64,000 bases of DNA, from the NCBI RefSeq assembly GCF_000176855.2, contig NC_015138.1, forward strand, positions 3,968,001 through 4,032,000, written 5' to 3'. Below are positions 1-12,986 of this stretch, one piece after another. This stretch comes from Paracidovorax avenae ATCC 19860. Lineage in GTDB: Bacteria; Pseudomonadota; Gammaproteobacteria; Burkholderiales; Burkholderiaceae_C. Each line of letters begins with the position of its first letter. Position 1 is the stretch's first letter. Under the pieces are notes generated by a model. It was not told the origin of the DNA, did not search any database, and saw only the letters and a list, made by a program, of their open reading frames with translations. The position numbers and the translations under genes were made by a program.

Positions 1-126
1 ACGCACGCCGCGCGTGAAACCGTAGCCGATGGTCCAGATGCCCACGGGATCGCGGTACGCCTGGGCGCGGAAACCCTCGAACTCCTCGATCAGCGCGATG
101 CCGCGCCCGGAAGTCACCATGGTCAT
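1..126 (-). CDS. Phage lysozyme (GH24 muramidase), 3' part cut by window edge
   Basis: Only the first 42 codons are inside the window. They encode the N-terminal active-site region of a T4/lambdoid-type lysozyme: a Glu in FEGFR, followed by the YRDPVG and WTIGYGFT segments, which is the E-x8-D-x5-T pattern of glycoside hydrolase family 24. The protein would cleave peptidoglycan between N-acetylmuramic acid and N-acetylglucosamine at the end of the lytic programme. Its ATG overlaps the stop codon of the upstream holin-like gene (ATGA), so the two are translationally coupled as a lysis cassette. No signal-anchor segment is visible at the N-terminus, so export would depend on a holin. Confidence 0.85.
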   Translation of the reverse strand, partial: MTMVTSGRGIALIEEFEGFRAQAYRDPVGIWTIGYGFTRGVR

Positions 127-431
127 TTGCGTCCTCCCGGCTCCACTGCATGCCCGCGCAGGATCGCAAGCGACTCCTTGATGTCCTGGTTGCTGCGCTG
201 CAGGTCGTCCACCCGGCCCTTGATCTCGCGCAGCGATTCACGGGTGGCGTCGCGGTCCTTCTCGGCCAGCACCTCGACCTGGGCAATGCGTCCGTCCTGC
301 CGCGTCTGGTCCTCGCGGTAGGCACCATAGGCCAGCGTCACGGAGCCCACGAACACCAGGGTCTGGACGATGGTCCCGGTGTTGATGGTGGGGTCGAATC
401 TCATGAGCCTCCCGGCTGTAGTCTTGTTCAT
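123..431 (-). CDS. Small membrane protein, holin-like
   Basis: This 102-residue protein has one hydrophobic segment at about residues 20-38 (IVQTLVFVGSVTLAYGAY) followed by a charged, heptad-rich helix that probably forms a coiled coil. It sits directly upstream of the lysozyme and overlaps it, so a lysis role (holin or spanin-like) is inferred from position and topology, not from recognised homology. The chosen ATG has GGAGG eight bases upstream. A second in-frame ATG at codon 10 is also preceded by GGAGG. The longer form carries two extra basic residues, which resembles the dual-start holin/antiholin arrangement of lambda S, but this is speculative. Confidence 0.6.
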   Translation of the reverse strand: MNKTTAGRLMRFDPTINTGTIVQTLVFVGSVTLAYGAYREDQTRQDGRIAQVEVLAEKDRDATRESLREIKGRVDDLQRSNQDIKESLAILRGHAVEPGGRK

Positions 432-458
432 TGATGCATCCTCCGAAGTCTGCGGGCG

Positions 459-481
459 AAAAAAAACCTGCTGGACGCAGG
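459..481 (-). terminator. Intrinsic-terminator-like hairpin before the lysis genes
   Basis: Read on the minus strand, a short stem CCTGC/GCAGG with a five-base loop is followed by eight T residues. It lies between the DUF4376 gene and the holin-like gene, in the path of late transcription. Confidence 0.6.
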
Positions 482-503
482 CACCGAGTGGCAGCTGTCG
501 CGG

Positions 504-1127
504 TCATATCGGCCAACCGGCCTCTATGTCGTACCTAGCAGCATCAGCCCTGTTCTGCAGCGCAGCGATGGCCTCGTGGTGCTTGCGTTCTGCAGAGAAA
601 CAGGCCTGCACATGCGTGACCATGGCGGCGGCGGCGGTGTGCAGATCGCCCACCGACAGCGTGATCCAGCCACTCTCGGACTTGAAGTCCAAGGACACGA
701 GACCGGCAATTTCCGCGTTCGCAACCAACCCAGTGATGCGGTTCTGGTCCTCTATGGACGTGCCAAGCCGCTTGCCGTCTGCAAGCGTCAAGCCCCCTGC
801 TTCCGCAGCCCGGCGCCGAGCCGTTGCCGCGGCCATCAGCCGCGCCTTGTCGGCTTGGAGGGCCTGCTCGATATCGCCGGCCGACATGGACCGGACTTCA
901 TAACCCTGGACCCAGTTGCCATCCTCATCGGCCTCAGGGGCCAGCGGCACGATGAATTCGGTCAGCGGATCATGTAGAGGCTGCTCGCCTTGTCCAACCG
1001 TCCGATAGGGGCCATGCCCTTGATAACCGTCGCCGATCACGGCGATGACGCCAGCTGCCTGCTCTTCGGCCACGACGTCCTCCATGGACATGGGCCAGCG
1101 CCTGGTCTGTGTATTGATGAACTGCAT
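504..1127 (-). CDS. DUF4376-type phage tail accessory protein
   Basis: The 207-residue protein ends in a DUF4376-like domain (about residues 95-205) with the typical helical pattern around ALQADKARLMAAATARR and a SGWITLSVGDLHT core. Such proteins occur next to tail fibre genes in many betaproteobacterial prophages and are thought to help fibre assembly or decorate tail tips; the exact role is unknown. The start at MQFINTQTRRW was chosen because an AGAAAG site lies just upstream and because the ATG is one base after the stop of a short upstream frame. A longer open frame extending upstream lacks a plausible start and has poor coding character. Confidence 0.65.
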   Translation of the reverse strand: MQFINTQTRRWPMSMEDVVAEEQAAGVIAVIGDGYQGHGPYRTVGQGEQPLHDPLTEFIVPLAPEADEDGNWVQGYEVRSMSAGDIEQALQADKARLMAAATARRRAAEAGGLTLADGKRLGTSIEDQNRITGLVANAEIAGLVSLDFKSESGWITLSVGDLHTAAAAMVTHVQACFSAERKHHEAIAALQNRADAARYDIEAGWPI

Positions 1128-1128
1128 T

Positions 1129-1380
1129 TCACACTTTCTGAGTGAGCGTTGTCTGGATAGGTCGGAGGACTCCCGGGGACGATCCCGAAGCCCACCGGGG
1201 TATAGAGTGCGAGATGGTCTGCCCCGAAGTGACTGCCGCGTTGTTGCGCCATGCGAGCTTGTCGCAGCGCCACCAGGGCGCGTCACCGTCGAAGTCACCT
1301 TCAACGCCATCGGCGTATTTGCCAGCTGAATTGCTGACGGAATGCTGGTGTTGATGCCGGGATCCGAACCTGAGCCGCAC
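1129..1380 (-). pseudogene. Possible remnant of a tail-adhesin C-terminal cassette
   Basis: Between the glycine-rich gene and the DUF4376 gene lies an 83-codon frame without a clear ribosome site. Part of it (LAWRNNAAVTSGQTI) matches the pattern near the end of the preceding adhesin-like protein (YRNALAVIPGETLTI). In a different frame the same stretch ends with PPTYPDNAHSES, which resembles the usual C-terminal motif of glycine-rich phage domains. I read it as a frameshifted spare copy of an adhesin tip, not an intact gene. It could also be a real small protein or meaningless sequence. Confidence 0.3.
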
Positions 1381-1384
1381 TCGG

Positions 1385-2161
1385 TCAGGTGGGCGTGTTC
1401 ACCGGAGCGTTGGAAGGGAAAGACCTTTCGCCTCCCCAAAGGATGCGCACAATCGCCCCGGTTCCGGCCGCGTTGTCGCGAATCCAGAAGTCCAGCGTGA
1501 TCGTGAGTGTCTCGCCAGGAATCACCGCCAGCGCGTTGCGGTACCGCAGATTGCCGCCTGGCTTGGCGTAGGGAAACCCCGCAGCACTCCATTCATTGTG
1601 CAAAGTGCCCGCTCCGGCACGATAAAGGCCTTTATCGCTTCCCGTCCCTCCCGGAGAGCCTTGTGTGGAGATCAAGCCTGCTGCGCCATTCGCGCCAATC
1701 CCGTAGATGCCGACCCCGCCACCGCGGCCCTGGTATGTTTGTCCGCCGCCACCACCGCCCCCCCCACCACCCTGTCCGTCGGTACCCTTGATGAGTGAGT
1801 AGTTGCCCATTCCCTCGTCGCGCTGGTACATGCCGAGCCCGCCAGGGCCGGAGTAACCACCAGCGCCACCGCCCCCGTTGTAGACAGTATTGACGTTGCG
1901 GGCATCCCCTCCGTCGCCGCCATGGGCATTGTTGGTTCCCGATGCCCATGTCGTGTTCAGCAGATCGTTGCCGCCACGAGAAACCCGGGTCGCATAGGCC
2001 TTGTGGCTGGAGACGCCGAGCATGCACACCTCATACACGCCGGCCGGCACCACCCAGTTGAAGACGGTCTGTGAATTGGACGCCCCCGCGCTCTGGAAGA
2101 TCACCTCGCCCGGATCCGCGAGCGGCAGTGCGCCGCCCGAAAACATTTGCGGCCGGATCAT
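1385..2161 (-). CDS. Glycine-rich tail-tip adhesin-like protein
   Basis: This 258-residue protein has a short N-terminal beta-rich region (about residues 1-70), then a long glycine-rich stretch with several Gly blocks separated by short aromatic or polar loops (for example NTVYNGGGGAGGYSGPGG and a run of ten glycines), and a compact C-terminus. The layout resembles phage adhesins such as S16 gp38, where polyglycine helices pack together and the loops bind the host receptor. That parallel is by pattern only. It overlaps the tail-fibre stop codon by ATGA, so fibre and adhesin are probably made together. Likely role: receptor recognition at the fibre tip. Confidence 0.6.
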   Translation of the reverse strand: MIRPQMFSGGALPLADPGEVIFQSAGASNSQTVFNWVVPAGVYEVCMLGVSSHKAYATRVSRGGNDLLNTTWASGTNNAHGGDGGDARNVNTVYNGGGGAGGYSGPGGLGMYQRDEGMGNYSLIKGTDGQGGGGGGGGGGQTYQGRGGGVGIYGIGANGAAGLISTQGSPGGTGSDKGLYRAGAGTLHNEWSAAGFPYAKPGGNLRYRNALAVIPGETLTITLDFWIRDNAAGTGAIVRILWGGERSFPSNAPVNTPT

Positions 2162-3175
2162 GCTGCGAATCCCGTCAGTGCAGAGACGTACCAGCCCACG
2201 TTGCCCACGAAGCACTTTTCGAAGTAAAGCAGATGGCGCTTGCCGGTGACGATGGTGGGTATCGTGCCGTTGGCCCAGACGGAACCTGCTGGCAGGGTGA
2301 AGCCACCTCCGATCATGAAGCTGATCTCCAGGAGCACCGAAGCGCTGTCCGCTGGCACGTTGACGAAAGACAGGGCCACCGTCGAGCCGTTGATGCCCAG
2401 GTGGAATCGCATGCCCTTCGACAGATCCATGACGCCATCGGTGAGTTGGGACGGCTCGTTGAGCATGGCCATGCGCCGCCACGGCGATGCGGAGGCATTG
2501 CCAGGCAGGCCGGCCATTCCCCGTGCATGGACCAGCCCGTTGGAGCCAATGGCCAGTTGCGCCAGCGTTGCGGCGCCGTCAGGACCGCGAAGCACCAGCA
2601 GTTGACCATTGGAAACCCCCACGGGCGCGCCAGCCACCGGCGATCCAAAGCGGTAGAAGCCCGCATTCACCGCAGACGCAAGATCTGCGTTGCCCAGATC
2701 GGCGACTGCAGGAATGGGAATCGTGACCACACCCTTAAAACCATTGATGCTGGCCACGGGTCCCCCCGAGATGGTACCTAGCCCCTGCGCCACGGCTGAG
2801 GCATCCCGGGCCGCAGCCTGGGCTGCACCGGTAGCGGCACCTCGGGCCTCCTCGGCGGCCTGGCGCGCCGTGCTGGCGTTGTCCGCCTGGATGATTGCAG
2901 TGTCGCGCGCCGCCTCGGACGCGGCCCGCGCGGCGGCAGCATTGCCAGCCTGGGCGACCGCCGTGGCAGCGGAGGCCGCCGCTGCTGCCGCGCTCTCGCC
3001 CGCGGCCGTCGCGTTCTGGAACATGTTGGCGCCCAGGGCATTCGCCTGCGGAACGAAGGCAGCCTGCGCAGCGACGCTCGCGAACGCCTTGGCCTTGAAA
3101 ATCCGATGGCGTGTCCGTCGGCTGCGGCGCCGGCGGCATGGCGGTGATGATGGGCGGGGAAACGATGTCGGTCAT
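2158..3175 (-). pseudogene. Tail fibre / collar-like protein with a one-base frameshift
   Basis: Starting at MTDIVSPPIITAMPPAPQP, the frame runs into out-of-frame sequence after about codon 24. The continuation (KAKAFASVAAQAAFVPQANALG, then an Ala-rich helical spacer and a collagen-free receptor-binding-like C-terminus) lies in the next frame. Removing one base from the A-run at 3098-3101 (TTTT in the mRNA) restores a single 338-residue protein. The N-terminus is typical of the virion-attachment part of tail fibres in Burkholderiales prophages. The start overlaps the upstream stop (ATGA) and the end overlaps the adhesin start. The break may be a real mutation, phase-variable slippage or a sequencing error. 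Confidence 0.7.
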
Positions 3176-4086
3176 GTAAGTCCTTCCAGCTCCAGTTCGG
3201 AGTCCGAGTAGTCGTAGTAGGAAATCACGATGTCGAAGCTCTTGTAGAAGCCGTACACCGTGGTCGATTCGTATCGGGAAGAGCCGATCCAGAGGCAGGG
3301 AGTGGCGCGCACTTCGGCCAGGAAGTCGTTGAAGGCGTCCACCTCAGCGGCATCGAGCAGCAGCGAGAAGCTGGCGCGCCGGGCGAAGGCCCTCTCCACC
3401 ACCACCACGTCCCCGAAATCCGTTCGCTCCTTGCGGCTGTAGTCCTGGATGCCGACGCGCGCACCGGCCTTCACGCCCAGCGCGAAAGTCCGCACCTGGC
3501 CCAGCAGCAGCACGCCCACGGCCAGGGCGGACGTGCCATCGAGATCGATCAGCACGTCCGCCCCGGGAAAGCTCGGCAGGTCCATCAGCACCGACTGGCT
3601 GGGAGCCCGGTGTTCTCCGAAATACCACTCCCACCAGTCCGGCGCGGCCGGTACCCACGACAGGTCTTCGGTGCGGTCGTACACCGTGCCGTAGGCCGGA
3701 TCGACCATGCGCACGCGCAGGCGTATCGCCCCCGTGACGTGGAGGGCCGCCATCGACGTGACGGCCTGCCCGGGCCGCAACCGGTACTGGATGCTGGCGG
3801 CCTGCGCAGTCTGCGAACTCACGGACCGGTCGAAGGCCTTCCAGCGGTTCGTCGCTCCCACCTCCACCCAGGCGCCAGAGGGGTCCACCGCAGGGTCCTT
3901 GCCCACGTTGCCGTCCTGCGTGCTCTGGTACACCTTGTGCACGGTGGCCTGGACGACGCGCGCGCCCTTGGCATAGGTCGTGCCTGCCGACCAGGGCGGA
4001 TGGTCGGACTCCGGCACGTTGCTGCCTACCAGCATGGCCGGCGTGACCACCAGGGGCCGCACCACGGTCAATGTCTGCTTGCTCAT
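3172..4086 (-). CDS. Phage tail protein with carbohydrate-binding-like N-terminus
   Basis: The 304-residue product (from MSKQTLTVV) has near its N-terminus a segment PPWSAGTTYAKGARVV followed by HKVYQSTQDGNVGKDP. This is the pattern of a small chitin-binding-like (CBM5/12-type) module, commonly found in phage tail-tip proteins. The rest is beta-rich with a FGDVVVVERAFARRASFSL segment and no recognised catalytic motif. It lies immediately after the tape-measure gene (ATGA overlap), where distal tail or hub proteins are normally encoded. A tail-tip structural role is inferred from position. The lambda M, L, K, I and J genes expected here are not present. Confidence 0.6.
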   Translation of the reverse strand: MSKQTLTVVRPLVVTPAMLVGSNVPESDHPPWSAGTTYAKGARVVQATVHKVYQSTQDGNVGKDPAVDPSGAWVEVGATNRWKAFDRSVSSQTAQAASIQYRLRPGQAVTSMAALHVTGAIRLRVRMVDPAYGTVYDRTEDLSWVPAAPDWWEWYFGEHRAPSQSVLMDLPSFPGADVLIDLDGTSALAVGVLLLGQVRTFALGVKAGARVGIQDYSRKERTDFGDVVVVERAFARRASFSLLLDAAEVDAFNDFLAEVRATPCLWIGSSRYESTTVYGFYKSFDIVISYYDYSDSELELEGLT

Positions 4087-7000
4087 GCGATTTCCTCCTG
4101 TCTCTGCTGCGGCATGCCGTCTCCGTCCCACCGCTCCAGCACCTTCGCCACGCGGGCGTTGAGGCGCGCCGTCTCTCCCGCCTGCTGGCGGCTGTCCTCG
4201 CGCAGGGCCTGCATTTCGGCGAGCAGCGCGGAGGCACCGCTTTGCTCACTGCGATCGATGGAGGCCATTAACGCCCGGTTGTCGGCGGCCGGGATGATCC
4301 GCTCGCCCTTGTGCACGATGGCGGGGGTGTCGTGCGGGACATAGTTCGTCCCCTGGTCGAAGGCCGGGAAACCCACCGACGCGGCAGCCTTCACCCAGTC
4401 CGACACCCAGTAGCCGCTCAGGATCGAGAGGTCGTCCAGCGTTCCCCCTGCCCCCTTGATCGCCTTGAGCAGCCCGACCAGGTCGCCGGTTCCGTCGAAC
4501 GAGTGGTACAGCGGGGACAGCTTGTCGAGCCGCGCGATCAGCGCCTGGTCGATGACCGGCTCGTATCCGATGCCTGCCGTCCCCAGGTATGTGAGGCGCC
4601 GGTACCTGGCCTGTGCGGCCGCGGCACCGCCGTCGCTCGCATGGCCTCCGCTGGTGCCGCCCCACACGGCTCCGCCGCTGCCCGAACCGGAGGCAGGAGC
4701 AGGGGAAGCAGAGCCGTCGCCCTCGCCCTTGCCCAGCAGGGAACGCAACTTGTCGATCGCTGCGGCAACGCTCAACGTTGCATCAAAGGTTCCGTTCGCG
4801 ATGTCGATCTGCCGGCGCCAGTAATCCAGCATTTCCTGCTGCGCCTTGAGTTGCCGGTTGATCGCATCGGTCTGCGCATCGAGGGCTTCGGACTGGCCCT
4901 TGAGCGCCGCGAGCTGTTGCTCGGCGACGCTCTTCTGCCCGCCGCTGATGGCCTCCAGTTGGGACAGCGTGCCGGCCAAACCCAGCCGGTCGCGGTCCAG
5001 CTCGAACTGCGTGGCGTAGTTGCCCGGCTCCAGGCCGCTGCGCGCCGCACCGATGGCCTCCTGCAGCAATGCCTGGTCAGGCAGATAACCCGTGGAACGG
5101 GCCGTCGCCAGCGACTGCTCCACGAAGGCCCATCCACGCGCCGCCTGCATGGTGGCGGTGGTGCCCACCTGCCCATACAACTCGCGGGCATTGCTGCGCA
5201 CGAGTTCGAATACACCATTGACGAGCGACAGCGACTCCTGCGCCAGTTCGCGCTGGGTGTCGATGGCCTTGCGCCGGGCGTCGATGGACTCCAGTTGCGC
5301 ATTGAGGCGCTCGCTCTCCAGCGTGGCGGCGTTCTGCAGGCGACCATAGGCGTCCTCGCGATCCTGCTTGCGTTTGGCCTCGGCCTCCGCGGCCGCGGAA
5401 GCGGCATCCTCCAGCTCCCAGATACGGTTGACCAGCTTTGCCAGTTCCGGATCGAGCTTCCATAGCGCGTCATATTCCTGCTTGCGGCGCATGTCCAGCG
5501 CCTCCCGGTTCTTGCCCTCGGCGACCAGCAGGCGCTGCTCGAGATCCCAGCGCTTGTCCGAGATGGCTTGCTGCTTGCGTGCGACCTCCTCGGAAGACAC
5601 CGCAACCGCATCGAAGGCCCCCGCGAGCTGCAACAGCACTGCATAGGCCTTCCGTCCTGCCTCGGTATTGAGATCCTGGGCCTCCACCAGCCTGCGGTAC
5701 TGCTTGCGCGCATCCGACGCATCGATGTCGGGAAGCTGGATTCCCGCAGCCGACAGCTGTTTCTCGATCTGCTTGCGGGCCGCCTCGCGCTGCTCTCCGC
5801 TGTCATAGAACTTCTGGTAGTAGGTCGCGGCACTGGACCCCAGCGCCTCCACGCCACCCGCCACCTTCATCAGTGCTGCGAACGCCTCGTCGCTGATGCC
5901 CGCGAAACCGACCAGCGTGCTCGACATCGTCTGGAAAACCGATTCGATTTTGCCGATCTGCGCCACGGCAGCCTGGAGCCCCTCCATGTTCACCTCAGCG
6001 CCGAGGTCGTTCAGGATCTGGTCTGCCCAGCTCGGCAGGTCCATGTCGAGCAGCACCTGGCGCGTATCCTTCGCCACCGCTGCAAGGTATTGCTTGTACC
6101 CCTCCGGCCCATCAGCGAATTCGCGTGCAGCCCATTTGCTCTGCCGGTTGTCCTCCCAGTTCACGAGATTCTTGCCGTCGCGCGAGATGCGCAGCGTGCC
6201 CCAGGCACCGTCCTTGGACGAGTCGTCGGCAAAGCCCGTGGCTATCTCGTACTTGCCATTGCGACCGAAGGCCTTGCCGAATCCATCGAGCAGGTCCACC
6301 ACGCCCTTGGCGACGGACGAAACGGCCTTGTCGGTTTCGGCCGAATACATCATCCCCAGGTTCACCCCGAACGCATGGTCCTCCACGCTGCGCTCGAACC
6401 CCTTGTCAGCGCTGTACTGCACGGTGGATCCCTGGTGCAGGGTGCCGCTGTCGTCCAGGCTGCTGATGATCGCCACCAGTGCCCCTATACCCAGAGCGAT
6501 AGGCCCCAGTGCGCCGATGATCGTGCCGATACCTCCAAGGATATTGCCGGCACCCATAGCGATACCTGCCGCGTCCATCGCACCGAGGAAGCCCGCCTCG
6601 CCAAAAAGAGCCGATACCCCTGCGTTCATCCCCATGCCAAACGCGCCACCACCCAGCTGGAGCAAGCCGCCCGCGTTGCCAAGCAATGAAAAGCCTCCGC
6701 CGCCACCGCCGCCGTCGCCGGTCAGCGCACTCGCTATTGCCCCTGACACCGGCTTTCACGATCGCGCTGATCACAGGCCTCAACACCAATGTGTTGAACA
6801 TGTTCTTCAACGCATCCCTCAGGTGCCGGCCGAAGTCCTTCCCGCTCTCCAAGCCCTTGAACAGGGCGTCGGTCAGCGACTGCTGGATCTGATCCGCCGT
6901 CTTCGCCCAATCGTCGCGCACGACCTTGGCCACGGCCGCCTCGGTTTCCTTGCGCTGGGCCTTCTCCAGGGTTTCGCGCACCTTCGCCTTGTCCGGATCA

Positions 7001-8826
7001 CTGCTTCGCTCGACCTCGGCCAGCTTCTCCGCATACTTTGCCTCGATCTGGCGCTGCGCGACGATCTTGGCCCGCTCCACCGCCGTCAACGACGCCAGGC
7101 TGGCTTCCTGCTCGGCTGCGGCGACGCTGGCTTCGGCCGAACGGAGCATGTCGTCGGCCTGCTTCTGGAGCACGTTGTGCTCCGCGACGCGAGTCTGGTT
7201 GATCTTCCGTTCCTGGGCTGCGGCCTGCTCGCGCAGCTTGTCCACGTAGACGGGCTCATAGCTGGAGTCGCTGCCGGATTCCAGTTCCGTGATCTTGGCT
7301 TTGATGAGCGAAAGCCGGTATTCCTCGATCTCGACCTTTCCCTTGCCCCACAGCGCATTGGAGGCTTCCAGTTCGGACGCCTGCTGCTCGATCGCCTTGG
7401 CGGTTCTGCCTGCCTCGTCGATGAGCGCGGCGTAGGCGCGGCGGGCCTTCTCGAGTTCCTCGTTGCGCTCTTTGCCGGCACTGCCGCCAGCGGTGTCAGC
7501 GCTCATGGTGAGTCCGGGTGCTGCCGTATTGCTTCCGGCAGCCATGTTCCGGCCTGCGACCGCGCAGTTGTCGGCCGTTTTGCCGACGCAGCAGCCGCGC
7601 TCCGTCCTGGCTACGGCCACCGGCGATGGCCCATGCGGGGAAGAGGACGCCTTGCGCTTCTTTTCCTCGCTGGCTCGGTCGCTGGCCTCGACCGCCTCTC
7701 TCTCTGTCCTGGCGTTTTCCGCCCGAGACTCGGCAGCCCGCCTTTCCCTGCGTTGCTGCTCCTGCAGGAGAGCCAGCTGGTCCTGCAAGTCTCTGGTCGC
7801 CTTGCCATCCTGGATGCCGATGGACTGGTTGCGCTGCTGCCGCTGCTCGATCTGCGCCTGCACCCCGGCGATCTGCTCGGAAATCGAAGCGGGTCGGCCG
7901 ATACCCAATATCTGGTCCCAGACACCCTTGGCGGTCGAACCAAGGCCGCGCCATGCGCGCTCCAGGTAGCCCAGGCGGTCGTGCATCGTGTCGGCCACTC
8001 CTGCCATGGCCCGCTCGTATGCACCTTGCGCCAGGGCGGCAGCCTCCGACGCTCGACCCTGCTCCTGCAGCGCCTTGATCTGGTCGTACACCGCGGCAGT
8101 GAGGTAGTTGTGGCGCTCATTGAGCCTGCGCGAAGCCTCCACCGGCTTTTCGCCCAGCTCGACGTAGGCCTTCACGGTATCCGCCACCGCCACGCCGACG
8201 TCGCGCTCCATGCGCAGCGCCGTCTCGGTGAAGCGCTGCAGATCCTCCGCTGCCACCTGCCCCGACTCGCCGAGCAGCGCGATCACTCGCGCGGCCTCGT
8301 GCTGGGTACCCACGGTCTGCGAGACGGCACTGGCGGCATCCTGCATTTGCGAAACCGTAAGACCCGCGGCGTTCCCCGACAAGGCGATTGCGCGCGCATA
8401 GGCATCCGCTTCCTGCTTCCCTTGCTGGTAGGCCACCGTCAAAACGACTGCCGTGGCAGCGGCCGCAGTGAATGGATTCACCATCGTCGCGACGGCTTCC
8501 CCCACGGCCGCCGCTGCCGGAGCGATGCCGCCAAAAGCTTCCGCCAGCTTCACGGCCTGCTCCGAAAGCAACGCGATCGGCTCCTGTCCCGCGATCAGGC
8601 CGGCAGCCATGGCGGCCAGTTGCACGGGCAGGACCTGCATGGCCGCCGAAGCCTGGGCCACCGATGCCCCATAGGTTTCCATCGCCGCGCCGCCGCCACG
8701 CAGCGCTTGCTCCGATTGAAGCAGGCGTTCAATCATGCGGCGGACTCCGGCCTCCATGCTGGCCAGGGCCCGCAGCGCCTGCTCTGCATCCTGTTGAAGT
8801 GTGCCCTGCACTGTGTTGTCGGACAT
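4083..8826 (-). pseudogene. Tail length tape measure protein, split by a one-base frameshift
   Basis: Two overlapping frames together encode a lambda-H-type tape measure of about 1,580 residues. The N-terminal part has the Ala-rich, coiled-coil character and the TMP_2-like region (about residues 40-260). The lambda-type C-terminal domain spans the junction (DALKNMFNTLVLRPVISAIV, then SGAIASALTG in the other frame). Deleting one base near 6753 (an extra G between AAA and CCGG on the coding strand) joins them as IVKPVSGAIAS, the usual family sequence. The protein would set tail length and be chaperoned by the G/GT-like proteins upstream. As written, translation would end in unrelated Arg-rich residues and stop at 6406. 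The junction is not a known slippery site. Confidence 0.85.
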
Positions 8827-8841
8827 AGCTCCTGCCCATGT

Positions 8842-8875
8842 AAAAAAAGACCGCGCGGCATGCAGCCGGGCGGCC
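8842..8875 (-). terminator. Intrinsic-terminator-like hairpin before the tape measure gene
   Basis: On the minus strand a GC-rich stem (GGCCGCCCGGC with GCCGCGCGGTC) around a five-base loop is followed by seven T residues. It lies between the chaperone genes and the tape-measure gene. Confidence 0.7.
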
Positions 8876-8955
8876 TGGAAAATGAAAGTCCGCCAGAGGC
8901 GGGCCCCGTACGGTGCCGGGTGGCGGCGGACAGCCGCGCATGCGGGCGCAGCAAT

Positions 8956-9282
8956 TCATGCCGCCCCGCCGATGCGCGCCCGCTCCCTCTCCGCCCTCTC
9001 GGCGAAGACCGTGAGCGCCTCGGACTCGATCACCTGGATGTCGCGAAAGCGCTCTTCATATGTGTCGGGATCCAGGCCGGCGCGGTCCAGCTCATGGAAC
9101 AGCACGCCGTAATCCAGTGCGACGGCACCGGCCATGCCCACGCGCCACTGGTTGCAGATGCGCGACCACAGTACATAGACGGGCCAGTTCTCCGGCCACA
9201 CTTCGGTAGCCGTATCGTCGTAATCGCGGCGCTCCAGCCCCCACGCGGCCAGTTCGGCGTCGCCGGCCTGGGGCTCGTACAT
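8956..9282 (-). CDS. DUF1799 tail chaperone extension (lambda T analogue)
   Basis: The 108-residue protein (MYEPQAGDAELAAWG onwards) matches the DUF1799 pattern seen after tail-assembly chaperone genes, with a WPENWPVYVLW core. It is probably not made alone. The open frame extends upstream of this ATG to the end of the preceding gene, where a GGGAAAC heptamer would shift ribosomes by -1 into this frame. This gives a 241-residue fusion equivalent to lambda gpGT. The fusion would bind the tape measure and recruit tail-tube subunits. Independent initiation at the ATG remains possible, but no good ribosome-binding site is seen. Confidence 0.75.
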   Translation of the reverse strand: MYEPQAGDAELAAWGLERRDYDDTATEVWPENWPVYVLWSRICNQWRVGMAGAVALDYGVLFHELDRAGLDPDTYEERFRDIQVIESEALTVFAERAERERARIGGAA

Positions 9283-9299
9283 GGCGCGCGCGATGCGGG

Positions 9300-9680
9300 T
9301 CAGTTTCCCAGCTTGCCCTCGACGCAGCCTTCGCGATAGGCATCAAAGATCGCCGTGGCGCCTCCGGGAATCTCGTCGGCGAACCGCGTGGCGTTTTCCG
9401 CGTTGACCTCCACGTCTTCCAGGTCCCAGGCCTTGACGATCTTCAGGAGGTAGTCGCCGTTCTTTCGCACGGCGTTGCCGAGAATGTCGCTGATCGTGCC
9501 GGGGCTGCCGGATGCGGGTATGGCCGCGGCCTCCGCGATCTCATCGACGAGCTGGCCGAATTCGGATTTCGTGCGGTAGAAGAATTCGCAGTGGATCACC
9601 CCCGTGGTGCCATCGAGCATCGGGAAGGAAACCTTGCGCTTGAACGATTCGGGACGCTTGCCCAGGACGATTTTTGCCAT
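9300..9680 (-). CDS. Phage tail assembly chaperone (lambda G analogue)
   Basis: The 126-residue product starts at MAKIVLGKRPESF and has the length and position of the lambda G-type tail-assembly chaperone, between the tail tube and tape-measure genes. It would coat the tape-measure protein during tail assembly without entering the finished tail. The last codons are CTG GGA AAC TGA, placing a canonical slippery heptamer right before the stop codon. This ATG was chosen over a longer upstream frame because the latter would run through two terminator-like hairpins; a GAAAG sequence lies about 10 bases upstream of the chosen start. Confidence 0.8.
   Translation of the reverse strand: MAKIVLGKRPESFKRKVSFPMLDGTTGVIHCEFFYRTKSEFGQLVDEIAEAAAIPASGSPGTISDILGNAVRKNGDYLLKIVKAWDLEDVEVNAENATRFADEIPGGATAIFDAYREGCVEGKLGN
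9303..9309 (-). other. Programmed -1 ribosomal frameshift site (GGGAAAC)
   Basis: The coding strand reads G GGA AAC directly before the TGA stop of the G-like gene, in the X XXY YYZ register needed for tandem slippage. Shifting by -1 gives GGG AAA CTG ACC, which continues in the DUF1799 frame without a stop. Lambda uses the nearly identical GGGAAAG for G/GT. Confidence 0.85.
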
Positions 9681-9702
9681 GATGTTGTGCTTTCGAAAAA
9701 AG

Positions 9703-9736
9703 AAAAAAAGCCCTCGCCGCATACGTTCGGCGGGGC
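9703..9736 (-). terminator. Intrinsic-terminator-like hairpin (second of a tandem pair)
   Basis: On the minus strand a stem built from GCCCCGCCG and CGGCGAGGGC is followed by a run of T residues. It lies between the tail-tube gene and the chaperone gene, just downstream of another hairpin. Confidence 0.6.
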
Positions 9737-9739
9737 ATG

Positions 9740-9760
9740 AAAAAGGCCCCGCAGGGCCTT
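9740..9760 (-). terminator. Intrinsic-terminator-like hairpin after the tail tube gene
   Basis: A nearly perfect stem AAGGCCC/GGGCCTT with a short loop, followed by T residues on the minus strand, lies 18 bases after the tail-tube stop codon. Confidence 0.65.
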
Positions 9761-9777
9761 GGCGCACCGGCCCTGGA

Positions 9778-10425
9778 TCAGGCCGTATAGCGAACCGGCC
9801 GGCCCTGCAGGGAGATGGTGGCGCGCACCTGCATCACCTGGCCCTTGGTCAGGGTGGGGGTCTCGTTGAACGACACATAGCCGTTGTAGAGGATCACCGA
9901 GCCGTTGGGCAGCGCGACCTTGACCGCGCGGATCGCGCGCGACTCGCCCGCGGCCTTGAGCGCCTGGTAGCCGGGCAGAGTGGGGTCGTCGCCGATGCCG
10001 ATCTGGATGGACTGCGCGCCGGTGACCGTGGGCAGCTGGCGCTCGTAGTCCTCCTCGAGGAACGAGAAGTTCGCGAACTGCTGGTCACCGCCGTTGGTGG
10101 TGAACTCCAGGATCTGCGGGATCTGGGTCCAGGCCAGGATCTCGCGCAGCGAACCGGCGGACGAGCCCGCCGGGAAGCGGTTCACGTCGGCCGTGTCGGA
10201 GCCTGCGATTTCCAGCGCATTCGCTGCGACATTGGCAGCCTTGAAGATCCGCTCGCTGATCTTCTGCCAGCCGGACTTCAGCTCGAAGAACGCGCCGTTG
10301 GCCAGCCCGTGCGCCGTGCTGGTGGCCACGCCGGGCGCCGCGTTGGAGATGGCGGTGATGGCCTTGGCGGTGCCGTAGCCGGTTGCGATGGCGACGGTTG
10401 CACCGTCGGGAAGGGAGACAGCCAT
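9778..10425 (-). CDS. Major tail tube protein (lambda V-like)
   Basis: This 215-residue protein begins MAVSLPDGATVAIATGYG and has the beta-rich composition and length of lambda-type tail tube subunits (TTP family), including a GLANGAFFELKSGWQKI segment and a C-terminal strand region ending in ISLQGRPVRYT. Subunits stack as hexameric rings around the tape measure to form a flexible tail. It is the first structural gene of the operon. Normally the head and head-tail joining genes would lie upstream, but only about 500 bases of short hairpin-rich sequence separate it from the Q-like gene. Confidence 0.75.
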   Translation of the reverse strand: MAVSLPDGATVAIATGYGTAKAITAISNAAPGVATSTAHGLANGAFFELKSGWQKISERIFKAANVAANALEIAGSDTADVNRFPAGSSAGSLREILAWTQIPQILEFTTNGGDQQFANFSFLEEDYERQLPTVTGAQSIQIGIGDDPTLPGYQALKAAGESRAIRAVKVALPNGSVILYNGYVSFNETPTLTKGQVMQVRATISLQGRPVRYTA

Positions 10426-10441
10426 GTTGTGCCTTTCAATG

Positions 10442-10463
10442 AAAAAAGCCCGCTTGCGCGGGC
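10442..10463 (-). terminator. Intrinsic-terminator-like hairpin upstream of the tail tube gene
   Basis: On the minus strand GCCCGC GCAA GCGGGC is followed by six T residues. It lies 17 bases before the tail-tube ATG, so transcripts must read through it to express the tail genes. Confidence 0.7.
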
Positions 10464-10572
10464 GGGTGGATGCCCTGTCGGGCGAAGATGGCCGTGAGGC
10501 CGGAAAGTGGAGGGACGGCGCGACGGGAGAAACCTGACAGGCTCCGTAGCCGCTCGGGAAATGCCCGGATGT

Positions 10573-10695
10573 TCACGCCAGGGCCGGGGCTGGCGAGTCG
10601 TGCGTGAGGAGGTGCCGCAATGCAGACACCTGGATGCCCGGACGCGTGAGTGCGCCCCGCTTGCGGCCGCAGCGGGCGCATCTCATTGCCTGCAT
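10573..10695 (-). CDS. Small CxxC protein of unknown function
   Basis: A 40-codon frame starts with MQAMRCARCGRKRGAL and has a single C-x2-C pair, preceded by an AAAGGTCC sequence that could be a ribosome-binding site. It lies between terminator-like hairpins in the gap where head genes would normally be. The size and cysteine pair recall small phage zinc-knuckle regulators such as Mu Com, but the second cysteine pair of Com is missing. The call rests only on position, the ribosome-binding-like sequence and the cysteine pair. Confidence 0.3.
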   Translation of the reverse strand: MQAMRCARCGRKRGALTRPGIQVSALRHLLTHDSPAPALA

Positions 10696-10712
10696 GGCGG
10701 ACCTTTCGATGC

Positions 10713-10745
10713 AAAAAAGCCCGCGACAGCAAGCGCTGCGCGGGC
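10713..10745 (-). terminator. Intrinsic-terminator-like hairpin in the pre-tail gap
   Basis: A stem GCCCGCG/CGCGGGC flanked by six A residues on the left and four T residues on the right could act in either direction. On the minus strand it ends in six T residues. Confidence 0.65.
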
Positions 10746-10761
10746 TTTTGCATAGCCAAAG

Positions 10762-10790
10762 AAAAAGCCCGCAGGGCGAACACTGCGGGC
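10762..10790 (-). terminator. Intrinsic-terminator-like hairpin after the Q-like gene
   Basis: On the minus strand GCCCGCAG and CTGCGGGC form an eight-pair stem around an eight-base loop, followed by five T residues. It is the first of three hairpins met after the Q-like gene. Confidence 0.7.
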
Positions 10791-10930
10791 TTCGGAAAAA
10801 TGGACGTGCATCTTCATCAGGATCTACCGCACACCACCCAGACCAGAAGTCTGATAGTTGCGGGCATTCGACAAAGAGGCGTCGGGCGAGAGGATAAGCA
10901 TCCTCTGCAATCGACTGGTGCAATTCTAAT

Positions 10931-11542
10931 TCAGCTCCTGATGGAGTGCAAGCGGTTTCCGATGGATTGGCGAGCCCGGTGCACGCAGTCATCGATGAAG
11001 TTGGCCATGCGGCGCCCCGCCTCGCCATGCGGCACGCGAGACAGGCCCGTGCCGGCGCACGCCTTGCACGCCCTGGATGAAAGCCGTGCCGCACCCGGCA
11101 TGGACTCGAACTTGCGGCCTTCGCACGCCGAGCACGTCGGCTGAAGCCACCAGTACAGCACTGCGGCGGCCACGGAATGCGGCGCATCGATGCGCCAACG
11201 GGTCGCCTGCGCGGCCAGTTGCTCGCGCACTTGCGGCAGCGTCTTCAGGCGGGCGAACACCTGGGCATGCTGGAGTGCGAGGCGTTGATCCGCGTCTTGC
11301 GGCGGCTCCTTCGGCGACGAATGAACCATGTCGGCCCGCGGCATGCGCGAATGGTCTGCCCCGTCGTACTCCGAATGCAGCCGCAGCAGCGCCCCTCCGA
11401 CGCGGGAGCGGCTCCAGCCGGCAGCCACCAGGAGGTCCGCATCCGATCGGGAAGCGCCCTCGCGTACACAAAGACGGAGATTGGAGGAGTTGCCGGCGGT
11501 GCTGTAGGCCTCCTGGACGGTGCGGGAATCGTTGTGGTACAT
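10931..11542 (-). CDS. Zinc-finger protein, antiterminator Q-like by context
   Basis: The 203-residue protein has a C-terminal DnaJ-like zinc-binding pattern: CSAC, about 19 residues later CKACAGTG, then a basic helix (NFIDDCVHRARQSI). Late antiterminators of the lambda Q group carry a comparable C-x2-C ... C-x2-C-x-G-x-G element. It is the first gene of the leftward operon, just across the operator region from the repressor, and is followed by a series of terminator-like hairpins. Both fit a late antitermination role. The start has AAGGAAG five bases upstream. No sequence-level homology to a specific Q protein is claimed. Confidence 0.5.
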   Translation of the reverse strand: MYHNDSRTVQEAYSTAGNSSNLRLCVREGASRSDADLLVAAGWSRSRVGGALLRLHSEYDGADHSRMPRADMVHSSPKEPPQDADQRLALQHAQVFARLKTLPQVREQLAAQATRWRIDAPHSVAAAVLYWWLQPTCSACEGRKFESMPGAARLSSRACKACAGTGLSRVPHGEAGRRMANFIDDCVHRARQSIGNRLHSIRS

Positions 11543-11625
11543 GGTCTTCCTTCAGGGGTGAGGGGCGTCGGGCAGACCGGGAGCACCTGTGCAGAGTCTG
11601 GCGCGGTGTCTCGATCCATGCCTCC

Positions 11626-11684
11626 ATTTAACATCATGTTTAAACCCAAGTCAAACAATTTGTTTAACAACATTTTGTTTAAAC
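11626..11684. promoter_or_regulatory. Divergent control region with three operator-like dyads
   Basis: Three AT-rich imperfect or perfect dyads built on the theme AAAC(A)/TGTTT lie in about 55 bases between the repressor and the Q-like gene: around 11626-11644 (TTTAACAT/ATGTTTAAA), 11653-11665 (AAACA-ATT-TGTTT, perfect) and 11667-11683. The rest of the neighbourhood is GC-rich, so they stand out. They are the likely binding sites for the adjacent repressor. Confidence 0.6.
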
Positions 11685-11700
11685 GGTGGACAATGGCGCC

Positions 11701-12384
11701 ATGCATGAAAGCGCCCTACGCCTCTACCAAGCCGCCTCCGAGCTCAAGGACGTCACCGGCCAGTCCGCCGTGGCTCGCCTGCTGGGAGAGTCCCCGCAGA
11801 ACATCAAGAACTGGGAGATGCGGGGTGTTTCCAAGGCCGGCGCACTGAAAGCGGAAGAACTCATCGGCTGCTCCGCCGCGTGGCTGCTGACCGGCGACAG
11901 GCAGCCTGCCCCGGCACACCGCAGGCCAGCCCAGCCCGCAGCGGTGACCACATCGGGCAGCGTGACGGTGCCGCAGCTGGCGAATGCAGCATCCATGGGC
12001 GCTGGCAGCGAAATGGCGCACGAGGACGTGATGGTGGGCCGTCTCACACTTTCGCCCACCTGGATCGGCAGGACGCTGCGCGGCCTCAGCACCCCCGAGA
12101 ACCTGCGCTTCATCCACGCCTATGGGGATTCCATGGAACCCACGTTCCTGGACGGGGATGTACTGCTGGTGGACGCGGGCGTGCGCACGGTGGAGGTGGA
12201 CGGGGTGTATGTCCTGGGAGCACAGAACCGCCTCTTCATCAAGCGCGTGCGCCAGCGGCTCGACGGTGCCTACGAGATCAGCAGCGACAACCCCACCGTC
12301 AAGACGGTGGATGTGCTGGACGGCAAGCACACGGTGGAGATCCTCGGCAAGGTGATATGGATCTGGAACGGACGCAAGATCTGA
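11701..12384 (+). CDS. LexA/CI-like repressor with S24 self-cleavage domain
   Basis: The 227-residue protein has an N-terminal helix-turn-helix (about residues 18-45, QSAVARLLGESPQNIKNWE) and a C-terminal S24 peptidase domain with the catalytic Ser144 in YGDSMEP and Lys181 in LFIKRV. A linker with SMGAGSE could supply the cleavage site. Such repressors hold prophages or tailocins silent and cleave themselves when RecA is activated by DNA damage, so the divergent late operon should be SOS-inducible. ATG 11701 was chosen, with GGTGGA about ten bases upstream; an in-frame GTG at 11686 would add five residues. AT-rich GTTTAA motifs lie on both sides of the gene. Confidence 0.85.
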   Translation: MHESALRLYQAASELKDVTGQSAVARLLGESPQNIKNWEMRGVSKAGALKAEELIGCSAAWLLTGDRQPAPAHRRPAQPAAVTTSGSVTVPQLANAASMGAGSEMAHEDVMVGRLTLSPTWIGRTLRGLSTPENLRFIHAYGDSMEPTFLDGDVLLVDAGVRTVEVDGVYVLGAQNRLFIKRVRQRLDGAYEISSDNPTVKTVDVLDGKHTVEILGKVIWIWNGRKI

Positions 12385-12650: not shown

Positions 12651-12986
12651 TGGTAGGCCGTGCTGGGCTCGAACCAGCGACCAAAGGATTATGCGTGCCA
12701 CTTCGGCTTTCGCCGCCCGTTTCCGGTTCGTGGCCTGGACTCTGTCTTGCCTTTCGGCCTTCCCGTCGAGTCTCTACACGTTCCCCCCTTGTGGAGGGCT
12801 TCGCTCGGCGTTGGCATAGCGCGCAGGACGCGCAGTAGCGTTCACCGAATTTGAGAAGTTCTACTTCAAGGCAGAGTGAACTTACCTTGAGCAACCCATT
12901 GGGTGCCGCTCCATTCCCAGGCCGTTGCCTGGGGACAGGAACCTCCCCGTCAAGTCCTCTGCTCTAACCAACTGAGCTAACGGCCC
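12651..12986 (-). tRNA. tRNA-Ile2 (CAU) gene interrupted by a group I intron
   Basis: The 5' exon (12953-12986) contains the acceptor, D-arm (TTAGCTCAGTTGG) and 5' half of the anticodon arm. The 3' exon (12651-12693) has the anticodon, the TTGGTCGCTGGTTCGAGCC variable/T-arm and encoded CCA. Joined, they give a 77-nt cloverleaf: acceptor pairs GGGCCGT/ACGGCCT, anticodon stem GAGGA/TCCTT and loop CTCATAA with anticodon CAT. The body, especially TTGGTCGCTGG and discriminator A, resembles E. coli tRNA-Ile2, whose C34 becomes lysidine (TilS) to read AUA, more than elongator tRNA-Met. The intron lies between U33 and C34. Confidence 0.9.
12694..12952 (-). ncRNA. Group I self-splicing intron (subgroup IC3-like) in tRNA-Ile2
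   Basis: The 259-nt insert carries the conserved core of the Azoarcus tRNA-Ile intron: AAATTCGGTGAA (P3-P4), CCAACGCCGAGC (P4-P6), GTGTAGAGACTCGACGG (P3/P7) and AGAGTCCAG (P7). The P7 pair GACTC/GAGTC compensates for GACTA/TAGTC in Azoarcus, a covariation that supports the fold. P8 and P9 are capped by GAAA tetraloops. The 5' exon end GGACU pairs with internal guide GGUUC, ending in the required U-G pair, and the intron ends in G. No homing endonuclease frame is present. Splicing should need only guanosine and magnesium. Confidence 0.9.

Follow-up and report, generated by a model that had tools for sequence, protein, structure and literature searches.

The tRNAscan-SE 2.0 paper devotes one sentence to group I introns that interrupt tRNA-Ile2 genes in Acidovorax and Burkholderia; the passages concerned are silent on their site, sequence, structure, guide and history and on any CRISPR link (PMC8450103). 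According to a review, bacterial tRNA introns lie mainly at position 37/38 (PMC4033280). In Paracidovorax avenae ATCC 19860, the tRNA-Ile2(CAU) gene is split by 259 nt between U33 and C34. The locus raises the question of what kind of intron occupies this site, how the split gene arrived, and whether the cell depends on splicing to read AUA. We examined the locus within the window (the whole 64,000-nt stretch of DNA analysed) and in related genomes, phages and plasmids; L and G numbers are our handles for loci and genomes. The explanation that we consider very likely as a whole is a spliced, sole tRNA-Ile2 with a group I intron at 33/34, probably acquired by replacement of the whole gene. No account of a 33/34 site class, of its guide layout or of signs of replacement was found in the literature searched by title and start of abstract.

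Anatomy, fold and distribution of the split gene

ARAGORN with introns allowed joined the two halves (12986-12953 and 12693-12651, minus strand) into a 77-nt tRNA with the anticodon CAU and placed the 259-nt insert after GGACT and before CATAA (Table 1). The splice junction is unable to slide: the exon U faces the G at the intron end, and the U at the intron start faces the exon C. The exact joining of the halves, the site between U33 and C34 with the whole anticodon in the 3' exon, and the terminal G of the intron had been proposed in a sequence-only reading of the locus. All were reproduced, the site and the G also in the wider set of loci described below. That reading also expected ordinary tRNA searches to overlook the gene; ARAGORN without introns indeed missed it and listed one other tRNA in the window.

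Table 1. Features of the split tRNA-Ile2 gene and its intron (positions in the window; intron numbering from the 5' splice site).
Feature	Position	Strand	Basis or remark
5' exon of tRNA-Ile2, 34 nt, ending in U33	12953..12986	-	ARAGORN -i
Group I intron, 259 nt	12694..12952	-	ARAGORN -i, RF00028, comparative fold
3' exon of tRNA-Ile2, 43 nt, beginning with the anticodon CAU and ending in CCA	12651..12693	-	ARAGORN -i
Predicted P1-extension hairpin domain between 5' splice site and guide, intron 5-52	12901..12948	-	outer stem predicted in 28/28
Putative internal guide AUG-GGUU, intron 54-60	12893..12899	-	GGGTTGC in 28/28
P2 hairpin, intron 64-86	12867..12889	-	4/5 pairs changed on both sides
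P3 5' strand, intron 95-100	12853..12858	-	invariant
Intron core stretch matched 33/33 by spacer 32, intron 157-189	12764..12796	-	spacer comparison
P7 5' strand GACTC (G-binding helix)	12768..12772	-	invariant; GACTA in Azoarcus-site L061, L062
P3 3' strand, intron 189-194	12759..12764	-	invariant
P7 3' strand GAGTC	12738..12742	-	invariant
Three-way P9 with P9a and P9b GAAA hairpins	12697..12734	-	alignment and P9 pattern searches

The insert matched the Rfam group I model RF00028 at 25.7 bits (E 5e-4) and was the sole match at E <= 0.001 in the 5.48-Mb genome. The model match named beforehand as a check was thus obtained by E value, but it lies under the gathering score of 50. With stricter filters, in a scan of 369 genomes, the same model missed this very intron, so the counts from that scan are lower bounds. 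When 15 intron sources were scanned, nine were matched, eight of them below 50 bits (L099 reached 62.7), and six, including our own L050, gave no match at E <= 0.5. Since introns in Leu, Arg and Ile2 tRNAs also score below gathering, the RF00028 threshold is stricter than the group I class.

A 21-nt core pattern matched 26 genome contigs and two contigs of a viral collection. These 28 loci and eight from an intron search gave 36 loci with 28 distinct introns, several of the 36 being one genome under two names; L132, which ARAGORN missed, was cut with a custom pattern. After ARAGORN's alternative cuts were normalised, all 36 were tRNA-Ile2 genes split between U33 and C34, and the 28 distinct introns all end in G. 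The hosts, which include Burkholderiales, Halotalea, Dokdonella and Perlucidibaca, are scattered patchily across the beta- and gammaproteobacteria. In L132, L055/L135 and L232-L234, the 33/34 introns sit in a divergent form of tRNA-Ile2 (...GCTTGGTTAGAGCAGCGGACT and kin).

Within Paracidovorax, the intron occurs in 5 of 17 genomes at 97-100% identity, with identical exon sequences; near-identical introns are found in P. citrulli, P. cattleyae and P. oryzae. Eleven of the 17 genomes have an uninterrupted tRNA-Ile2. In G016 (L099/L107), the native tRNA-Ile2 beside hrcA breaks off after nt 41; some 120 bp further on stands another tRNA-Ile2, whose group I intron is a different one, located after CAU (RF00028 62.7 bits). 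This second gene is followed by frames that look transposase-like by eye.

A core covariance model (R1) matched 76 of 399 family genomes at E <= 0.001. Ten stood apart at 143-208 bits, and all ten (seven loci inspected and three Paracidovorax genomes) carry a tRNA-Ile2 split at 33/34. The next match scored 129 bits. Twenty further loci (L235-L254) hold related introns at other anticodon-loop positions, in tRNAs that ARAGORN labelled Thr, Arg, His or Leu, a label that depends on the cut.

The fold was compared in 27 of the 28 introns, with P1, P10 and P2-P9b named. L127, with an intron of 434 nt, was dropped from both alignments (A1 and A2), and L131 and near-duplicates from A2. The fold comprises 56 pairs, with 98.5% of the cells paired, and 14 pairs show changes on both sides. 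None of 500 shuffled controls scored as high on any of five measures, and sliding-partner controls were 34-43% paired. Covariation was located in P2, P4, P5a, P6a, P9 and P9a; P3, P7 and P8 are invariant among the 33/34 introns and therefore give no covariation support. The P3-P9 fold, in which P7 and P3 cross, is that of a group I intron, which we take to belong to subgroup IC3. P7 is GACTC/GAGTC in all 27 aligned introns and GACTA/TAGTC in the Azoarcus-site introns L061 and L062, in line with the compensated change that had been noticed in the single sequence.

The split tRNA-Ile2 gene with its group I intron is thus confirmed; it is not a chance resemblance, because 5 of 17 genomes of the genus carry it and 28 distinct introns share its site and fold.

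Arrival of the split gene and a matching CRISPR spacer

The exons of 17 of the 36 loci equal those of the window letter for letter (77/77). Ten of these loci are of the Paracidovorax type and seven are from outside (L115, L120, L123-L126, L136). Intronless congeners, in contrast, share only 87-91% identity with these exons. The T-arm GGTTCGAGCC is present in 23 of the 36 split loci versus 1 of 29 intronless genes (52 family places were matched, 30 fetched and 29 read). The surroundings also differ. The intronless relatives G007 and G011 have hrcA, tRNA-Ile2 and tRNA-Arg(acg) side by side. In the genome of the window, about 1.6 kb with a LuxR-type regulator and a small frame separates hrcA from the split tRNA, and a repressor with tail and lysis genes lies between the split tRNA and tRNA-Arg; in G008 and G012, the latter place holds a shorter stretch with a related repressor. 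Because the exons agree with outside split tRNAs rather than with congeners, and because the hrcA-tRNA-Arg neighbourhood has been rebuilt, the whole split gene probably replaced the native gene in an ancestor of the P. avenae/citrulli group. No remnant of a native tRNA-Ile2 was found by blastn in the neighbourhood of the five carriers. The acceptor stem was considered as sole proof of replacement, a view weakened by the finding that both acceptor types occur among the intronless tRNA-Ile2 genes of the family (16 and 12 of 29), so that the stem alone is no proof of it.

Alternatively, homing or reverse splicing might have brought the intron into the native tRNA gene, with no replacement of the gene. 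The identical junction in 36 of 36 loci after normalised cuts is what site-specific insertion would produce, and the presence of both acceptor types in the family agrees with it. Insertion alone, however, leaves the 77/77 identity with split tRNAs of other taxa, set against 87-91% with congeners, and the rebuilt flanks of the carriers to be accounted for, and an intron of 259 nt has little room for an endonuclease. We regard this route as possible, yet on balance improbable.

The island between tRNA-Arg and the split tRNA (window 123-12384, and L100 10753-12432) carries genes for tail tube, tape measure, tail fibre, lysozyme, an Rz-like protein and an S24 repressor. Among the subset of frames scanned, no capsid, terminase or integrase was seen. 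The gene content suggests a tailocin-like or cryptic prophage island.

The intron search also matched 35 nt elsewhere in the genome, which belong to a CRISPR spacer. Spacer 32, counted from the cas side (G000:C1:4428872-4428904; L098, L224), is identical to the intron in 33 of 33 positions. The array has 51 repeats and 50 intervals and adjoins cas3, 5, 8c, 7, 4 and 1 (PADLOC, six frames given), the frames of a type I-C system. The alleles of four sister carriers differ from spacer 32 by 2-3 bases, and the 16 remaining Paracidovorax genomes, which include many drafts, yielded no equivalent spacer with <=3 mismatches; spacer 32 therefore fits the P. avenae lineage's own allele. No account of a CRISPR spacer against a tRNA intron was found in the literature searched by title and start of abstract.

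For the adjacent spacer 33, the match is in phage Acica and has TTC on its 5' side (one example). On the same side of the spacer 32 target stands GCC, so that in the crRNA orientation the sequence differs from the interference PAM. On the opposite strand, TTC stands immediately before the match, provided that one ambiguous G is included. The chance of TTC at that place is estimated at about 3% (1/64, two positions allowed), and for this reason the flanks are suggestive of a spacer that was taken at a TTC PAM and then inserted flipped. The Cas frames look whole, and flipping of the spacer would account for the cell's survival despite them; an anti-CRISPR could also account for it. Passages of PMC5059440 describe flipped spacers with the reverse-complement PAM at the far end in a native type I system of Pectobacterium. 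Spacer 32 is like the self-matching spacers reported there in its identity to the cell's own chromosome and in its reverse-complement PAM at the far end; it differs in that the P. avenae array is of type I-C and its target is a ribozyme core inside a sole-copy tRNA gene. A review suggests that CRISPR may limit group I introns (PMC3984707); spacer 32, an exact match to a resident intron, provides a concrete example with which to address this.

The spacer could also derive from a phage or other foreign element with an identical intron, and not from a Paracidovorax chromosome. A plasmid tRNA-Leu (L159) and a huge-phage contig (L158) do carry related introns, and the exact 33 nt are present in two viral-collection contigs. 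One of these contigs (L139), however, is identical to the chromosomal island of P. avenae itself over 9349 bases, and the other (L138) is 99% like that island over the 2672 bases compared. In addition, among 50,697 phages and 72,556 plasmids no place covers 80% of tRNA plus intron, and partial core matches only were seen, in one phage and six plasmid records. A foreign source is a real but rather unlikely alternative to the chromosomal allele of the lineage.

In a comparison of 47 of the 50 intervals with the phage collection, one record was matched, at two places. The search of the own genome covered 48 of the 50 intervals, all but a duplicate and an irregular one of 111 nt; 40 of 236 candidates were scored, and further self matches are therefore possible. 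Spacer 12 matches the tail-gene island (window 199-232) in 30 of 34 positions, without TTC on its 5' side.

Guide, proposed splicing and probable need for the tRNA

The heptamer GGGUUGC, at intron 56-62, is present in all 28 distinct introns. By eye it was also found in seven tRNA-Ile2 33/34 loci fetched with a model lacking the guide region, three of which look like introns already in the set of 28. The guide GGUU can form P1 with the exon end GACU. This P1 consists of four pairs only, two of them wobbles; all four are possible in 26 of 27 rows, and exon U and guide G form the wobble at the 5' splice site in 27 of 27, which together with the terminal G is as expected of a group I intron. The domain between splice site and guide is predicted to be closed by an outer stem that joins its first and last parts, with at least five such pairs in 28/28 (median z -2.7; weak in L114, -0.4, L117, -0.5, and L056, -0.9). 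Its stems vary in sequence, and an internal loop CCUAAAC...GCAUGG recurs. This loop presumably resembles the 11-nt tetraloop receptor, from which the P. avenae form departs. In the model, the P1 extension would bring the guide to the exon. For P10, the intron AUG can pair with C34-A35-U36; all three pairs are possible in 17 of 27 rows, and the middle pair is absent in 9.

The sequence-only reading had assigned the guide otherwise, as in an Azoarcus-type intron in which GGUUC (intron 10-14) pairs with GGACU. Such a pairing is possible and would also give a U-G wobble at the splice site. Only 4 of the 28 introns, however, have this motif in their first 30 nt, all of them from Paracidovorax, and in P. 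avenae most of the motif is inside the predicted P1-extension stem. Moreover, the insertion site differs from CAU|AA, and the three-way P9 is found in 28/28 introns versus 0/20 of those grouped with the Azoarcus site. We consider this arrangement very improbable. On these comparative grounds GGUUC is set aside, and the conserved guide appears to be GGGUUGC.

With this guide, splicing would proceed as follows. In the precursor, the folded core (P3-P8, with P7) would bind an external guanosine, while the exon end GACU pairs with GGUU 57 nt inside the intron and the hairpin domain fills the P1 loop. The guanosine would attack after the U33-G wobble, and the terminal G of the intron would then occupy the guanosine site. 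P10, formed by the intron AUG and the anticodon CAU, may help to line up the 3' exon, and exon ligation would give the 77-nt tRNA. TilS would finally convert C34 to lysidine, and the tRNA would then decode AUA as Ile.

By covariance search the genome has 52 intact tRNAs. The only two other tRNAs with CAT (ARAGORN on fetched places) resemble the elongator and initiator tRNA-Met, and neither a tRNA-Ile(UAU) nor a second tRNA-Ile2 was found in the genome by covariance search and ARAGORN. The gene tilS is present as one open frame and, with the CAU cloverleaf, identifies the split gene as tRNA-Ile2. Of five genes counted, hrcA has three AUA codons and nadK, recN, rapZ and mutY have none. Since AUA is in use and neither a second tRNA-Ile2 nor a tRNA-Ile(UAU) was found, the split gene is, as far as the genome sequence tells, the only AUA reader. 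No tRNA-Ile2 other than this one was found in the genome, and the earlier suspicion of a sole AUA-reading tRNA stands. That the intron is a decayed relic in a silent gene, with AUA decoded by another route, would suit the RF00028 score under gathering and the rarity of AUA, but is scarcely credible given exons intact and identical in five Paracidovorax genomes, a fold conserved over 27 introns, the retained tilS and the failure to find another AUA-reading tRNA. The intron is conserved, and as a ribozyme it almost certainly works; its kind is known, and the class of its insertion site is unusual.

The introns define a U33/C34 class of tRNA introns with a putative guide about 55 nt inside the intron, behind a folded P1 extension, and with a flank able to pair with the anticodon. 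This class hides a probably needed tRNA from ordinary annotation in 10 of 399 sampled family genomes, and with the split gene, dependence on a ribozyme could be tested in vivo. A further, joint reading, to which we give little credence, would treat split tRNA-Ile2 genes of the 33/34 class as transferable replacement cassettes: an incoming element would swap the host tRNA for a ribozyme-dependent one, the intron would destroy an anticodon-loop site usable by other integrating elements, and CRISPR would have sampled the cassette, with only a flipped, harmless spacer keepable because the target is a gene that the cell cannot lose.

Kinship and comparison with known systems

The three-way P9 is shared by 28 of 28 introns of the 33/34 class and by none of the 20 grouped with the Azoarcus site; the 'Azoarcus site' labels of loci assigned at class level are a re-reading of ARAGORN cuts, and L162 is doubtful, being probably another tRNA. 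A strict P9 pattern matched 28/28 of the class and one of five tRNA-Leu introns. A looser pattern, written after inspection of the sequences, matched all five tRNA-Leu(34/35) introns, one tRNA-Arg(CCU) intron, the plasmid tRNA-Leu intron and the huge-phage piece, and still 0/20 of the Azoarcus-site group. In a core tree of 29 rows, the 33/34 introns form one group (21 rows, support 97/96). The tree leaves out 24 introns lacking the core-cut pattern, including 18 of the 20 in the Azoarcus-site group, so that only L061 and L062 stand for that class; seven near-duplicates were taken out beforehand, and neither the ARAGORN cut of L159 nor the huge-phage piece was included. In these 29 rows no clear sister of the class emerged; the bootstrap had not settled and the branches are long. 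Because the three-way P9 is shared with tRNA-Leu and tRNA-Arg introns and occurs in 0/20 of the Azoarcus-site group, the 33/34 intron is probably a cousin of the Azoarcus intron on another branch.

Two mobile contexts of related introns were observed. In a conjugative Klebsiella plasmid (L159, NZ_CP139688.1, at about 13.6 kb), a tRNA-Leu(UAA)-like gene close to aac(3)-IId contains a group I intron; the locus has no annotated feature, and similar pieces occur in five other plasmids. A 595-kb uncultured phage (L158, LR756511.1, at about 409 kb) holds an apparent tRNA-Leu 3' half and a group I intron end, which by eye adjoins an HNH-like frame. This phage may be a mobile source from which such introns come.

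The intron had been called Azoarcus-like. The comparison intron is that of the pre-tRNA-Ile(CAU) of Azoarcus sp. BH72, reportedly described by Reinhold-Hurek and Shub in 1992 and by Tanner and Cech in 1996. The P. avenae intron is like it in host tRNA, in the kind of core (compared by way of L061 and L062) and in the terminal G, and the label holds for this shared core. It fails for the site and for P9: an intron of the Azoarcus type lies after CAU (36/37) and has a simple P9 hairpin, whereas the P. avenae intron, like those of the 36 loci, lies at U33/C34, with the three-way P9. Unlike the P. avenae intron, L061 and L062 are inserted after CAU, have the P7 GACUA/UAGUC and a simple P9, and lack the 48-nt P1 extension; we assume that the BH72 intron likewise has a simple P9 and no such extension. 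With the introns of tRNA-Leu(UAA) and tRNA-Arg(CCU), the 33/34 class has in common the three-way P9, the overall core and the anticodon-loop niche, but those introns occupy other tRNAs and other sites.
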